Assembly: GCA_017432225.1 (NCBI GenBank)
Contig: JAFRJN010000014.1
Coordinates: forward strand, 1 to 64,000
Direction: 5' to 3'
From: Candidatus Saccharimonadota bacterium
GTDB lineage: Bacteria > Patescibacteriota > Saccharimonadia > Saccharimonadales > Saccharimonadaceae
DNA: 64,000 bases
The translations under genes and the position numbers were made by a program. This document shows, piece by piece, positions 1 through 3,569 of the stretch (position 1 is its first letter; each line of letters opens with the position of its first letter). The notes below the pieces were generated by a model. The model made no database searches. It was not told the DNA's origin and saw only the letters and a list, made by a program, of their open reading frames with translations.

Positions 1-1
1 C

Positions 2-352
2 CCGAAAGGCTGGAGCCTCCCAACTGGTGGAAGCGGTGGAGAGTTTGAAACTCTCGCTACGGCATACGGCTATGGCACTGATAGCGGTAGCACAGTGGCT
101 GGCAAATTACTAGTCGCTAATCCATCTACTGCCACCGAGAATATCAATGGCCAGTATACCCCTGGGCTCTTACTCAGTGGCAACTACAACAGCGGTGGTG
201 CCGACCACCTAGGCGCCCTCGGCCTCTACTGGTCGCGTACTTCGTACTCTACGGGGCGCGCTTACGGCCTGTACCTTTTTACTTCAGGCGTCAACCCACT
301 GCTTCACGGCAATAAGTTCGATGGCTTCGCCGTCCGTTGCCTGCTCCAGTAG
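2..352 (+). CDS. DGR target protein, 3' end (variable C-terminal lectin-like domain)
   Basis: This is the C-terminal 116 residues of a gene whose start lies left of the window; the frame is open from base 2 to the TAG at 350-352. The text has the look of FISUMP/formylglycine-generating-enzyme-like surface domains: GWSLPTGG near the left edge, a Gly/Ser/Tyr-rich middle (YWSRTSYSTG) and a closing GFAVRC. That fold is the usual display scaffold of DGR target proteins. Its last 65 codons form the variable repeat. Twelve residues differ from the template-encoded version, mostly template Asn codons that have become D, H, L, G, Y or F. Family knowledge suggests a surface or secreted ligand-binding protein. 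The ligand and any signal peptide cannot be seen from this fragment. Confidence 0.85.
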   Translation, partial: PKGWSLPTGGSGGEFETLATAYGYGTDSGSTVAGKLLVANPSTATENINGQYTPGLLLSGNYNSGGADHLGALGLYWSRTSYSTGRAYGLYLFTSGVNPLLHGNKFDGFAVRCLLQ

Positions 353-389
353 CCTCCTGGTGGCGGGTCCGGGGTTGTTCCCCTCCGAG
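158..389 (+). repeat. DGR variable repeat (VR)
   Basis: This 232-base segment matches the reverse complement of 2573-2804 end to end without gaps. By eye there are 20 differences, all between 203 and 320, and each falls on an adenine of the template (8 to G, 8 to T, 4 to C). About half of the 40 template adenines in that stretch are changed and none of the other bases are. The part after the stop codon (353-389) is identical to the template. It is GC-rich and includes a small GGGG-TTGTT-CCCC hairpin, as expected for the fixed end where DGR retrohoming starts. Confidence 0.95.
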
Positions 390-504
390 TGTTCTTTTCC
401 TTTGGACTAAACAGATAACGGTCCGAGCAAGAAACTTGAGCAGGGGAAACAAAATATCAAAATGCACAAAAAGGAAAAACAATAAATCAATCAGAAAGGT
501 CGAA

Positions 505-1296
505 ATGGTAAAGAGAGATACGACTGACGAGAAAAAAGGCCCATCAAGAGATGAGTACGTCAAGAATAAAATCGGACTTCTCAAGTGGGAAGAAGACAAT
601 TATACTATGCTTGGTGTGCTTGTGGGGCCAAATGGTATGCACAAAATGTTCGATCATTCCGCGATAATCTATGTTTGTAAAGTTTCGAAAGCGATTGGTG
701 CGCCCTCGGCGAGGTTGATTCTCGACAGTGACTATGACGCGCCAACAGACAAGCCGGTCTGTCTTCTGCCTAATTTTGGACAAGTTGAAAAAATGCTGGT
801 TGCAAACGGAATGAAGGAAAAGAAGACGGAGGGAAAAATTGTCTTTGAGCTAGGCTATCGTGTAGATGCTGCCGATCTGATTGAACTGCAAAAAGAAGAA
901 GAATCGCTTCTTGACAATGCAAACCGATTGGTATTGCCGGTAAAAATATATCCGAGGCTTCGAACTGAACTTGAAAAGTCAGCAAAATTAATTTGTGAGC
1001 TAAATAGAAAAATGAGTGGTGACCTTCGTGAGGTGGTAGGCAATAAAATGGCAACGACGGCGATTAGTCTTTGTACAATGTTCGTAGAAGCGGCTAATGC
1101 GCATATCGACATGAAAAAATATTTGAAAGACGCTAGAGTAAAAGTGAGTGAGCTTAGCGGTGAAACTGTAACATTGATGAACTTGAGACTGATTGAAGGT
1201 AGTAAAGCTATGTCGATTCTGAATCAACTTGACCACACGCAAAAGAAAATTGCTGGTGCATTGGAAAAAGAAAATGGTTCTACTGCTACCAGCTAG
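505..1296 (+). CDS. avd: DGR accessory protein: Avd-like four-helix bundle with extra N-terminal domain
   Basis: The product has 263 residues. I chose ATG 505 because AAAGG lies just upstream; an open frame continues leftward from there but looks non-coding. The C-terminal 100 residues are four amphipathic helices with the Avd / 23S-rRNA intervening-sequence-protein pattern: Tyr-Pro-Arg-Leu entry, a long basic helix, then KKYLKDARVKVSEL and a helix ending in KKIAGALEKE. In studied DGRs Avd binds the reverse transcriptase and template RNA and is required for mutagenic cDNA synthesis. The N-terminal ~150 residues are extra. A stretch around MFDHSAI and LLPNFGQVEKML weakly recalls MutS domain I, which occurs in some DGR accessory proteins. 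The gene lies between VR and RT and overlaps the RT reading frame. Confidence 0.75.
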   Translation: MVKRDTTDEKKGPSRDEYVKNKIGLLKWEEDNYTMLGVLVGPNGMHKMFDHSAIIYVCKVSKAIGAPSARLILDSDYDAPTDKPVCLLPNFGQVEKMLVANGMKEKKTEGKIVFELGYRVDAADLIELQKEEESLLDNANRLVLPVKIYPRLRTELEKSAKLICELNRKMSGDLREVVGNKMATTAISLCTMFVEAANAHIDMKKYLKDARVKVSELSGETVTLMNLRLIEGSKAMSILNQLDHTQKKIAGALEKENGSTATS

Positions 1297-2518
1297 ATGC
1301 GCGGACTCGCCGATGATTCTGGGCCTGCTTCAGCCGACGACTGAAGAAAAAATGAAGGAATATAGACGTCAACAGAAACGCAAAAGGGAACTTTGGGGGC
1401 GCGCGAAAATATTGGAAAGGCGTTTTTCGTATAGGTGGCTAGAACAACAACTGTTTGAAGCGGAAAGGCGGGCCAGGCGTGGTAAGACTCACACGACAGA
1501 TGTGTATATTTTTGAATTAAGATTAGTCGACAATATAAAACAGCTCGCACATGATATTTGGGGGTACGGGTATAAGCCGACGCCGGGAATTAAATTTGTA
1601 GTAAAAAGACCGGTTCCACGGGAAGTCTATGCGGCGCCGTTTCGCGATAGGGTGGTGCATCATTTTTTGTTTGATCTGGTCTATCCATGGTGGGATAATA
1701 TGTTTATTAATAATTCGTATTCTTGTAGATATGGCAAGGGGGCGCTCTATGGAATGGAAATGCTCCGAAGACAAATTAGACGAGTGTCCGAAAACTATAC
1801 TAGGGAAGCGTATATACTAAAACTGGACGTACAAGGATTCTTTATGAGTCTGAACCATAAAAAGCTGATGGAACGAGTGGAATGGGGGCTGGATATTCAA
1901 TTTGACGGAGCGCCGAAACTTAAGAGACTTCTGAAATATTTGTGGAGAATGGTGATTTTTACCGATCCGAAGGAAGGGGTGAGACTACGTGGTAAAAAAT
2001 CCGATTGGGATATTTTGCCGCCAACGAAGATTTTGGCAAATCAACCGCCCGGAACTGGTATTGTGATTGGGAATTTGACTTCGCAACTTTTGTCGAATAT
2101 CTATATGGATCTTTTGGATCGGTATATCATGTATAAACTAAAATATACAAATTATGGACGGTATGTGGATGATTTTTATATTGTGGTGCCGGCAATTCAA
2201 AAGAAAAAGTTACTTCGAGATGTGGCAAAAATTAGAGATTTTTTGAAAAATGAAATGCTTTTGACACTGCATCCGAAAAAACTGTATCTACAGGAAGTGA
2301 AGCATGGGGTGGAATTTCTAGGATTTGTGGTGAAACCATATTATACAATGATAACGAAGAGATTTAAAAATAATTTTACGAGAGCGGCGATCGAAGTGGA
2401 ATGGGGAATAAGAAGCCTAGACGCGGTGGCTTCGTATTTGGGTAGGCTTAAGCATGTGGACGGGAAGAAATTCGCAGCGAATTTGTTTGAATGGGTTGGA
2501 TGGGAATATAGGTTTTAG
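1274..2518 (+). CDS. DGR-type reverse transcriptase
   Basis: This RNA-dependent DNA polymerase (414 aa from ATG 1274) makes the mutagenised cDNA. The DGR fingerprint is clear: REVYAAPFRDRVVHH, then SYSCRYGKGA, the palm motif LDVQGFF, the DGR form of motif 4 IGNLTSQ (2066-2086), the catalytic YVDD at residues 297-300, and VEFLGFVV near the end. There is no maturase or endonuclease domain, which separates it from group II intron enzymes. The start is uncertain: ATG 1274 overlaps the accessory gene by 23 bases after a weak GGAAA, while ATG 1352 (MKEYRRQQ) would give a more typical DGR-RT N-terminus of 388 aa. The catalytic residues are intact, so I infer an active enzyme. Confidence 0.95.
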   Translation: MVLLLPARCADSPMILGLLQPTTEEKMKEYRRQQKRKRELWGRAKILERRFSYRWLEQQLFEAERRARRGKTHTTDVYIFELRLVDNIKQLAHDIWGYGYKPTPGIKFVVKRPVPREVYAAPFRDRVVHHFLFDLVYPWWDNMFINNSYSCRYGKGALYGMEMLRRQIRRVSENYTREAYILKLDVQGFFMSLNHKKLMERVEWGLDIQFDGAPKLKRLLKYLWRMVIFTDPKEGVRLRGKKSDWDILPPTKILANQPPGTGIVIGNLTSQLLSNIYMDLLDRYIMYKLKYTNYGRYVDDFYIVVPAIQKKKLLRDVAKIRDFLKNEMLLTLHPKKLYLQEVKHGVEFLGFVVKPYYTMITKRFKNNFTRAAIEVEWGIRSLDAVASYLGRLKHVDGKKFAANLFEWVGWEYRF

Positions 2519-2551
2519 GCTTATTGGTTCATAGGCTGATTGGTTTATAGG
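2516..2551 (+). repeat. short tandem repeat after RT stop
   Basis: There are two imperfect 16-base copies (TAGGCTTATTGGTTCA, TAGGCTGATTGGTTTA) and the beginning of a third. They start at the RT stop codon and lie between RT and the template repeat. On the minus strand they would fall near the 3' end of the template RNA. Function is unknown. Confidence 0.6.
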
Positions 2552-2559
2552 TGGGGATT

Positions 2560-3086
2560 TCGGAAAAGAAAGCTCGGAGGGGAACAACCCCGGACCCGCC
2601 ACCAGGAGGCTACTGGAGCAGGCAACGGACGGCGAAGCCATTGTTCTTATTGTTGTGATTCAGTGGGTTGACGCCTGAAGTATTAAGGTTCAGGTTGTAA
2701 GCGTGCCCCGTAGAGTACGAAGTACGTGACCAGTAGTTGCCGTTGGCGCCTAGGTTGTTGGCACCACCGCTGTTGTAGTTGCCACTGAGTAAGAGCCCAG
2801 GGGTTTTCCAACAACACTCCTAGGAAGAGACCGTCATTCCTCGGCTACAGTCCAGTCTACACTGTCACAGCTGACAAAGTCCACTCGTCAGTTGATTAAT
2901 CGGAGGGCCAACTTTAACAGATCGCTAAACCTGTCGGCCTAGCATCAGAACGGTATATACCTCATTGTTTTGTCCGATTTTGACGACGCAAATGTTTAAG
3001 GGCGGCCCTTGTGTTCTTTTCCTTTTTAAATGGATGTCCGGCATATAGATACGACGGCATTTCTACTGCGGGATAGGCCCCACCTG
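2560..3086 (-). ncRNA. predicted template-repeat RNA with structured 5' region
   Basis: An inferred transcript from the promoter at 3092-3100 would run through 2805-3086 and the TR. The stretch 2805-2960 has no convincing gene but folds locally on the minus strand: GGCCGACAG pairs with CTGTTAAAGTTGGCC, CTGAC pairs with GTCAG across an 11-base loop, and there is a short CAGT/ACTG hairpin. A 32-codon open frame (3060-2962, MPSYLYAGHP start) lacks a ribosome binding site. The 3' end is a guess, because I see no strong terminator. Confidence 0.5.
2573..2804 (-). repeat. DGR template repeat (TR), on the strand opposite to RT
   Basis: Read on the minus strand, this is the invariant copy of the variable repeat. 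In the VR frame it contains a run of AAC/AAT codons exactly where the VR codons differ, so adenine mutagenesis would target surface-loop residues. Match boundaries are sharp: position 2804 pairs with VR 158 and position 2573 with VR 389. Beyond 2573 about a dozen further bases match with two differences. The TR lies 54 bp past the RT stop and points toward RT. Confidence 0.95.
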
Positions 3087-3091
3087 TGTAT

Positions 3092-3100
3092 ATTATAGCA
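3092..3100 (-). promoter_or_regulatory. extended -10 promoter for the TR RNA
   Basis: On the minus strand the bases read TGCTATAAT, a perfect extended -10 element (TGnTATAAT). No good -35 is visible. It lies between the end of rnhA (3147) and the spacer before the TR, and points only at non-coding sequence and the TR. Confidence 0.6.
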
Positions 3101-3146
3101 CTTGTGGTTATTTCGTAGTTGTTGGGGACTATTGGTGGCTGCGGGG

Positions 3147-3569
3147 TTACTGGTGTTCGCGGGCGGACCGAGCGGCGATGTCGGCGAGCTCGTTCAATTC
3201 GATGAAAGCGTGGCCTTTGACCCAGTGGAGCTCGACATCGTGATTCTGATACAAATCGTAGAGTTCCTGGACGAGGTCGAGATTCTTGATTTCGCCTTGC
3301 TTCTTTTTCCAGCCGTTGCGCTCCCAGGAAGGGGCCCATTTGGTGAGGACGTTGATCCAAAATTCGGAGTCGGTGTAGATTTCTACTGGTTCGTTTGCCA
3401 TGACGGCGAGCTTGATAGCCTCGCGGATGGCGGTGCCTTCCATGCGGATGTTGGTGGTGTGGGGCTCAGCACCAGTCATAATGGTATCTTCGGTGCTGGC
3501 GTCGATGATGGCCCAGCCGCCGGGACCGGGATTGGGGTCGGCGCTACCGTCGGTGTAAAATGTTTTCAT
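3147..3569 (-). CDS. rnhA: ribonuclease HI
   Basis: This cytoplasmic enzyme cuts the RNA strand of RNA-DNA hybrids, such as R-loops and replication primers. The 140-residue protein is full length for the family and has the whole active site: D7 (YTDGS), E44 (RMEGTA), D67 (YTDSEF) and D130, with H120 in the flexible loop (VKGHA). The start follows a strong GGAGG eight bases upstream. It lies 25 bp downstream of tyrS on the same strand and is probably co-transcribed with it. Its other neighbour is the template-RNA promoter of the retroelement, but I see no reason to assign it a role there. Confidence 0.95.
   Translation of the reverse strand: MKTFYTDGSADPNPGPGGWAIIDASTEDTIMTGAEPHTTNIRMEGTAIREAIKLAVMANEPVEIYTDSEFWINVLTKWAPSWERNGWKKKQGEIKNLDLVQELYDLYQNHDVELHWVKGHAFIELNELADIAARSAREHQ

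Follow-up and report, generated by a model that had tools for sequence, protein, structure and literature searches.

An inverted template repeat and a candidate permuted, retron-like template RNA in a Saccharibacteria diversity-generating retroelement

Comparison with described systems

Most knowledge of how diversity-generating retroelements (DGRs) work comes from one phage system, whose structured RNA lies 3' of the template. In the BPP-1 DGR (Mtd/Avd/TR/bRT), the template repeat (TR) lies on the strand of the reverse transcriptase (RT) gene and upstream of it, and a spacer 3' of the TR recruits RT and Avd (PMC12875486). In the inverted DGRs of Shewanella, Vibrio and Photobacterium, the TR, the variable repeat (VR) and the target gene lie together on the strand opposite the RT, and the available part of that account mentions no leader RNA (PMC3521204). 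The CPR DGRs of "DGR clade 2" are cellular and restricted to Patescibacteria; their targets are reported to lack recognised domains, and a text search of that paper finds no discussion of TR orientation (PMC8144416).

The DGR described here lies at the start of a 64,000-nucleotide stretch of DNA (the window) from a Saccharibacteria relative of Nanosyncoccus from the ruminant gut. It shares with BPP-1 the A-specific TR-to-VR mutagenesis, a DGR RT, an Avd-fold accessory protein, a C-lectin-like target and a VR at the 3' end of the target gene. Unlike in BPP-1, however, the TR is antisense to and tail-to-tail with the RT gene, has a promoter-like box of its own and is preceded by conserved structured RNA on its 5' side, and the accessory protein carries an extra N-terminal domain (Table 1). 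As in the inverted DGRs of Shewanella, Vibrio and Photobacterium, the RT is opposite the TR; it differs from these in that the TR alone is inverted. Like "DGR clade 2", it is cellular and confined to Patescibacteria, whereas its FISUMP/C-lectin targets and proposed permuted RNA set it apart from that group as reported.

The RNA proposed below has the order of retron msr-msd RNA, i.e., end-pairing strand, structured RNA, template and end-pairing strand. This retron-like order appears to be new relative to described DGR members. Unlike in a retron, the RT is not of retron type (the best retron model scores 45-49 bits, the cut-off being 235), the product would be used for mutagenic homing, and cDNA branched at the 2'-OH of a conserved G is a trait of retrons.

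Table 1. Features of the DGR locus, in window coordinates
Feature	Position	Strand	Basis or remark
Target (variable) protein gene, C-terminal 116 aa	2..352	+	ORF open at contig edge; 5' part missing
Variable repeat (VR)	158..400	+	continues beyond target stop codon; 20 A-only differences in 232 nt plus 2 non-A at 3' junction
GGGG-TTGTT-CCCC inverted repeat, VR 3' part (IMH-side hairpin)	371..383	+	read from sequence
Accessory protein, 263 aa	505..1296	+	N-terminal alpha/beta domain and C-terminal Avd-fold four-helix bundle
DGR reverse transcriptase	1313..2518	+	RVT_1 above cut-off; ORF opens at 1229 and the start codon is uncertain
Pout 3' strand (CCCCACCU), just 3' of TR	2549..2556	-	complementary to transcript 5' end
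P0 3' strand (UUCUUUUCC), the TR 3' end	2562..2570	-	partner-swap analysis; fold
Template repeat (TR)	2562..2804	-	antisense to RT and target gene
TR copy of GGGG-TTGTT-CCCC inverted repeat	2579-2591		read from sequence
P1 3' strand (UGGCCCU), UUAAAGU just before	2904..2910	-	leader structure model
P3 hairpin (GCUAGGCC-GACA-GGUUUAGC)	2924..2943	-	unconstrained fold
P1 5' strand (AGGGCCG)	3003..3009	-	leader structure model
P0 5' strand (GGAAAAGAA)	3014..3022	-	4 nt ahead of P1; partner-swap analysis
Pout 5' strand (AGGUGGGG), likely TR RNA 5' end	3078..3085	-	partner-swap analysis; fold
-10 box TATAAT (extended, TGCTATAAT), proposed TR-RNA promoter	3092..3097	-	promoter signature in related leaders

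Template and variable repeats

Upon re-alignment, 158-389 and the reverse complement of 2573-2804 match without gaps over 232 positions, with 20 differences that all lie at TR adenines, as a first-pass annotation of this DNA had reported. Its tally of 20 of 40 adenines and 0 of 80 other bases was a miscount, since 20 of 52 adenines are changed against 0 of 180 other bases; the A-only conclusion holds, and the non-A substitutions as common as those at A, which it had named as evidence against its reading, do not occur. The substitutions comprise A>G (8), A>T (8) and A>C (4), and the restriction to A has a hypergeometric P of 5.8e-14 when computed on the first 189 positions (49 A). Twelve residues are altered, 11 template Asn and one His, in agreement with the twelve, mostly Asn, given earlier. 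The homology extends for another 11 nt, to 400/2562, and this extension holds two non-A differences (TR CT, VR TG) immediately preceding a common TTCTTTTCC. Non-A differences at this place, the 5' edge of the P0 3' strand, also occur in the second DGR of the window's genome and in many relatives. Family-wide, 1342 of 1451 TR-VR mismatches are at A (64 TR-VR pairs; 80 related loci).

Two remote target genes, on contigs C5 and C1 (the window being contig C8), differ from the window TR almost exclusively at A. The chances are slightly better than even that their VRs derive from earlier cis-VR alleles copied through recombination among near-identical target genes, a reading compatible with the explanation favoured below. 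The upstream target sequence is almost identical between the copies, C8 and C5 share the same base at 12 of 13 doubly mutated sites, and the homology of C5 and C1 to the TR ends where the reading frame ends, so that the 3' junction carrying P0 is absent there. However, C1 agrees with C8 at only 4 of 12 such sites, and direct targeting without the junction is possible. As a rule for the lineage, "one TR, many targets" is unsupported because, in two near-closed relatives, the tested TR matched only the cis VR at high identity.

Reverse transcriptase, accessory protein and target

The window RT carries the IGNLTSQ (SQ motif) and YVDD motifs noted at first pass, both intact, and matches the PHROG reverse transcriptase family at E 1e-72; a match to it is present in 79 of 295 family genomes. 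Related RTs in the genome contigs were recovered by a search with an alignment of 20 RTs, while a scan of the contigs using a single RT protein as the query returned nothing.

The AlphaFold model of the accessory protein has a pLDDT of 93, and residues 146-262 of this predicted model superpose on the BPP-1 Avd structures 8ub7 (Z 14.5) and 4dwl (Z 14.3), which are outranked only by related S23-family folds in the fold search with the C-terminal domain. The protein also matches the phrog_3206 Avd profile (E 1e-3). Judged from the predicted model, the accessory protein is Avd-type. MutS domain I (PF01624; MSL accessory) matched one of 42 N-terminal accessory domains, at E 0.09, and no MutS_I gene for comparison was found in the 15 relatives searched.

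The target gene lacks its 5' part since the window begins at base 1 of its contig; its paralogs and homologs are full length. The profile search gives a weak FISUMP/Fib_succ_major match for the window domain and matches above the cut-off for several homologs. A homolog model aligns with FGE/C-lectin-type folds at Z 5-7.9 (VIA-align), below the range where such matches are sure, and a Foldseek search of the PDB with the target domain gave nothing significant. The FISUMP matches and the fold matches of the homolog model support the lectin-like domain proposed earlier as a C-lectin/FISUMP domain, and the "tiny host-dependent bacterium" of that proposal fits a host related to Nanosyncoccus.

Taken as a whole, the locus is a cellular DGR. 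Its likely role is to diversify a secreted C-lectin-like (FISUMP) protein in a Saccharibacteria episymbiont, and it likely belongs to an RT clade whose template RNA is separate and permuted. Its initial identification as a DGR is backed by the A-only differences, the RT with SQ and YVDD motifs, the Avd-fold accessory protein, the C-lectin/FISUMP target and 80 related loci. That reading was right yet incomplete, as the inverted TR, the TR promoter, the structured leader, the second DGR and the remote targets were overlooked.

Inverted template repeat and leader RNA

Of 64 related cassettes, 63 have the TR antisense to the RT gene, almost always tail-to-tail behind it, and in a supported RT clade (100/98) this applies to every member cassette with an identified TR. 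In 49 of the 64, including the window, VR and target keep the strand of the RT and the TR alone is inverted; in 13 of 64 relatives, the RT is opposite TR, VR and target (Schillinger group 4 layout), which the window does not fit. RNase HI was rejected as a conserved partner beside the TR, being present at only 4 of 81 loci.

On the TR strand, a promoter-like box is followed by a leader with a P1/P2/P3 junction, directly 5' of the TR. TATAAT with a G-rich start is found in 20 of 64 leaders in the TR sense versus 1 of 64 antisense; 24 cassettes carry a clear promoter-plus-Pout signature, and about 30 are matched by the leader model. In P1, 97% of cells are paired and double changes occur at six of seven pairs, and the covariation score of the whole leader structure is 0.54, compared with 0.22 for shuffled and at most 0.22 for slid alignments. 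MAFFT with RNAalifold alone recovered only P1; P2 and P3 were recognised by eye together with a covariance model. In 1 Mb, leader model R1 (12 training sequences) recovered about 14 leaders that had been held out, nearly all of them immediately 5' of the TR and on its strand; model R2 gave 17 matches in 295 genomes, 15 of them within ~500 bp of a DGR RT (training loci included). The window's own leader gives no R2 match; P0, P1, Pout and P3 are seen in it, P2 is not discerned, and the P3 loop is GACA rather than YNMG. Searches against Rfam were negative both for the window TR region (threshold E 5) and for four leader loci (threshold E 0.5).

The helices P0 and Pout are specific to their partners. 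For P0, own versus swapped partners give a z of 9.5 with P1-anchored leaders and 10 with whole leaders (66 cassettes), with 0 of 20,000 permutations in each of the two tests; the Pout test likewise has 0 of 20,000, at z = 6.0. Folding of the window RNA without constraints yields both helices, and the centroid of this fold includes P1. Whole-RNA folding is weak as proof of Pout and P0: swapped 3' ends pair in 10-16 of 24 folds against 19 for the own ends, because G-rich and C-rich ends pair readily. Comparing own with swapped partners by helix score tests the two helices better.

Proposed mechanism and alternatives

We lean, with moderate confidence, towards a Saccharibacteria DGR lineage with a permuted template RNA, in which the RT-recruiting structure is 5' of the template, two long-range helices close a retron-like topology, and cDNA is primed from the leader rather than from a 3' spacer. 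We infer that this RNA is transcribed, bound and primed, and that the TR RNA/RT system is active, in the following manner. The promoter opposite the RT strand would start a separate RNA of about 540 nt (start and end both predicted), the 5' end of which would pair with the bases just 3' of the TR (Pout). A second leader segment would pair with the last TR bases (P0), followed by the P1/P2/P3 junction and then the TR. The junction may recruit the RT and the accessory protein, with its Avd fold and additional N-terminal domain, while P0 would position the TR 3' end at the RT active site. Synthesis of the cDNA would begin where P0 has its 5' edge; as in retrons, the primer would probably be a ribose hydroxyl close by in the leader. 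The RT would miscopy template adenines, and the cDNA would replace the VR via the common 3' sequence.

An ordinary DGR with a flipped TR would instead recruit the RT through RNA 3' of the TR, antisense into the RT gene, the 5' leader being merely regulatory or stabilising. Precedents exist in the inverted DGRs (PMC3521204) and in the 3' spacer used by BPP-1 (PMC12875486), and the end of the RT gene does lie antisense, 3' of the TR, in the window. This arrangement is nevertheless unlikely, given that P0 and Pout join the 5' leader with the 3' end of the TR through covariation that is partner-specific, and that terminator-like hairpins immediately follow the TR in several cassettes, leaving little space for a 3' spacer.

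Recent activity of the window DGR is plausible. The rather long branch of its RT (0.72 in the RT tree) would suit an inactive element whose A-only pattern is a relic, but this is improbable in view of the intact RT motifs, a VR in frame without stops or non-A decay in 232 nt, and the different A changes in the remote copies C5 and C1. Finally, it is very improbable that Pout and P0 are DNA signals, e.g., ends of an invertible segment or inserted cassette, rather than RNA helices; inverted repeats do flank the TR and complementarity alone cannot separate DNA from RNA, but TR orientation relative to the RT is constant across the cassettes bar one, Pout starts where a TATAAT-driven transcript would start, and P1, P2 and the YNMG-like loops, with double changes between arms, are RNA-like.

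Implications

If the permuted RNA holds across the clade, the template and the recruiting element would be separable modules, the architectures of DGR and retron RNAs would be linked, and a compact template RNA would be usable for directed diversification. The leader model, in combination with P0, would serve as a marker for templates with far-off targets. We also infer a role of this DGR in host attachment, and the system could provide host-dependent Saccharibacteria with a concrete route to vary a surface binding domain.

Repeat Pair and Associated Proteins

The repeat pair reported in the first-pass annotation is real, as window positions 158–389 and the reverse complement of 2573–2804 align without gaps over 232 bases, and its adenine-only pattern holds, with 20 of 20 differences located at adenines of the template repeat (TR) copy (chance of such a distribution ~6e-14). 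The denominators quoted there were wrong, the TR containing 52 adenines in 232 bases and 49 in the first 190, which leaves the pattern unaffected. Twelve residues change between TR and variable repeat (VR), as stated, and the template residue is Asn in 11 of them. The homology extends 11 bases past the 232-base block, where two non-A differences occur (CT in TR, TG in VR).

The identification as a diversity-generating retroelement (DGR) is borne out by the surroundings of the pair, namely a reverse transcriptase (RT) with the IGNLTSQ and YVDD motifs, an accessory protein and a target. In the predicted model of the accessory protein, the C-terminal domain is a four-helix bundle that matches Avd of the Bordetella phage BPP-1 DGR (8ub7, Z 14.5; 4dwl, Z 14.3), preceded by an N-terminal alpha/beta domain for which there is only a hint of a MutS-like (MSL) identity; MSL is an already known DGR accessory type (PMC10053308). 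The target gene is truncated by the contig start, and its protein ends in a FISUMP domain; the predicted model of a close homolog resembles the FGE and C-lectin folds. An RNase HI gene (3147–3569, minus strand) lies directly upstream of the putative TR promoter, probably by chance, since only 4 of the 81 related loci contain it.

Positions of features of the window DGR
Feature	Window position	Strand	Remark
Accessory ORF, two-domain protein	505–1296		model pLDDT 93
TATAAT box	3097–3092	TR strand	
Pout	3085–3078 with 2556–2549	TR strand	
P0	3022–3014 with 2570–2562	TR strand	
P1	3009–3003 with 2910–2904	TR strand	

Leader RNA and Predicted Long-Range Helices

A conserved RNA, the leader, is located 5' of the TR on the TR's own strand. 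In its P1 helix (7 bp, 97% paired), 6 of the 7 pairs show double changes, and the core further comprises a UUAAG segment ahead of P1' and two hairpins, P2 and P3, the latter frequently closed by a YNMG tetraloop. A model built from 12 leaders (R1) recovered ~14 held-out leaders in a search of 1 Mb, almost all of them in the same position and on the same strand. A second model (R2) gave 17 hits over 295 genomes, 15 of them beside a DGR RT by our count, which bears on specificity and not on sensitivity because the training loci lie within these genomes. R2 did not detect the window's own leader, owing to its atypical P2 and P3 loop. No leader-like family was found in Rfam at the thresholds used. 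One cassette carries the leader twice (L132:2531–2609 and 3085–3163), with one copy between RT and TR, and a leader match at G134:C2:67093–67196, on a different contig from that genome's RT hit, is possibly a detached TR.

Sequence comparison indicates that two long-range helices, P0 and Pout, close the template RNA. P0 pairs the bases directly 5' of P1 with the last TR bases, and own partners far exceeded swapped ones both for P1-anchored leaders (z 9.5) and for whole leaders in 66 cassettes (z 10.1), with 0 of 20,000 permutations in each case. Pout pairs the putative transcript 5' end, 6–10 bases past the TATAAT box, with bases shortly after the TR (z 6.0, 0 of 20,000 permutations, 24 cassettes). 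The combination of TATAAT and a G-rich start is present in the TR sense in 20 of 64 leaders vs 1 of 64 antisense. The unconstrained fold of the window's 541-nt RNA contains Pout and P0, with P1 also present in the centroid, and only 7 or 8 of 2000 shuffles equal or exceed each of the window's two long-range helices; in whole-RNA folds with swapped ends, pairing is rather frequent.

In the window, a second DGR of the same genome and many relatives, isolated non-A changes between TR and VR recur at the 5' edge of the P0 3' strand. This would be expected if that edge were the start point of cDNA synthesis and the base at it never reached the VR. Such a start would agree with a role of P0 in positioning the 3' end of the TR; both the RNA ends and cDNA priming are inferred.

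Orientation of the TR across Relatives

Among 80 named related loci and the window, a TR/VR pair was found in 64 cassettes. Of these, 63 have a TR antisense to the RT, and in 62 that TR follows the RT tail-to-tail. The TR behind the RT is the only one of the three elements on the opposite strand in 49 cassettes, VR and target being on the RT strand; a further 13 have both TR and VR opposite to the RT. One locus (L122:560–808) has an antisense TR upstream of the RT, between VR and accessory gene, with P0 and P1 still present.

In a tree of 102 RTs, the window falls within a supported clade (100/98), in which the TR is antisense in every cassette whose TR was identified. RTs further away in this family vary in layout, some being canonical, and the leader search gave no convincing match among them. 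Nine loci with accessory-sized ORFs (L117, L119, L123, L124, L129, L131, L135, L138 and L140) form a supported RT subclade, in whose fetched DNA neither a TR/VR pair nor a leader match was found.

Second DGR and Remote Target Copies in the Host

The host is a member of the Saccharibacteria, whose best named relatives include Ca. Nanosyncoccus alces and are mostly from the guts of goats, sheep, deer and cattle; its genome comprises 620,715 bases in 18 contigs (92% complete). The second DGR lies at the end of contig C5 (116.3–119.7 kb; L017:4288–7728) with its own accessory gene, TR and target, the target gene being truncated by the contig end. Here, 19 of 21 TR/VR differences are at A; this DGR likewise has a P0, a leader (R2 E 2e-6) and an inverted TR.

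Compared with the window's TR, all differences are at A in target copies at the starts of C5 (17/17) and C1 (15/15, over 189 bases), as are 18 of 47 in the copy at the start of C13. For C5 and C1, direct targeting is no more likely than recombination between target copies, because both copies lack the TR 3' junction and the window contig, C8, has the same base as C5 at 12 of 13 doubly mutated sites.

Diverged target paralogs occur at C13:161–348, C11:19104–19291 and C9:349–530. Differences of the C11 paralog from the second TR are at TR adenines in 23 of 44 cases over 190 bases; in the C13 and C11 paralogs, they are enriched at TR adenines without being confined to them, and both are possibly former targets. 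Target paralogs lie at the starts of C1, C5, C8 and C13 and at ends or starts of C6, C9, C14 and C16 (four C-terminal and four N-terminal pieces), so near-identical copies probably broke the assembly. In a full-length paralog (C1:25550–26908; L011), the region ahead of FISUMP weakly matches a CPR 'Pam pilus' pilin domain (NF058581, E 1e-7, below cut-off).

Comparison with Known Systems

The ends of retron RNA pair as a1/a2. In retron RNA, msr precedes msd, and priming is by the 2'-OH of a guanosine (PMC8867640); the RNA here follows the retron order, with the enzyme and outcome of a DGR. In BPP-1, the spacer that recruits RT and Avd lies 3' of the TR and cDNA is primed by an internal adenine (PMC12875486), whereas the conserved structure here is 5' of the TR. 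Inverted DGRs are described as a rare type, with TR and VR together (PMC3521204). Since its RT fails the retron RT test, the window element is classed not as a retron but as a DGR, one that varies from the known members in its RNA and layout.
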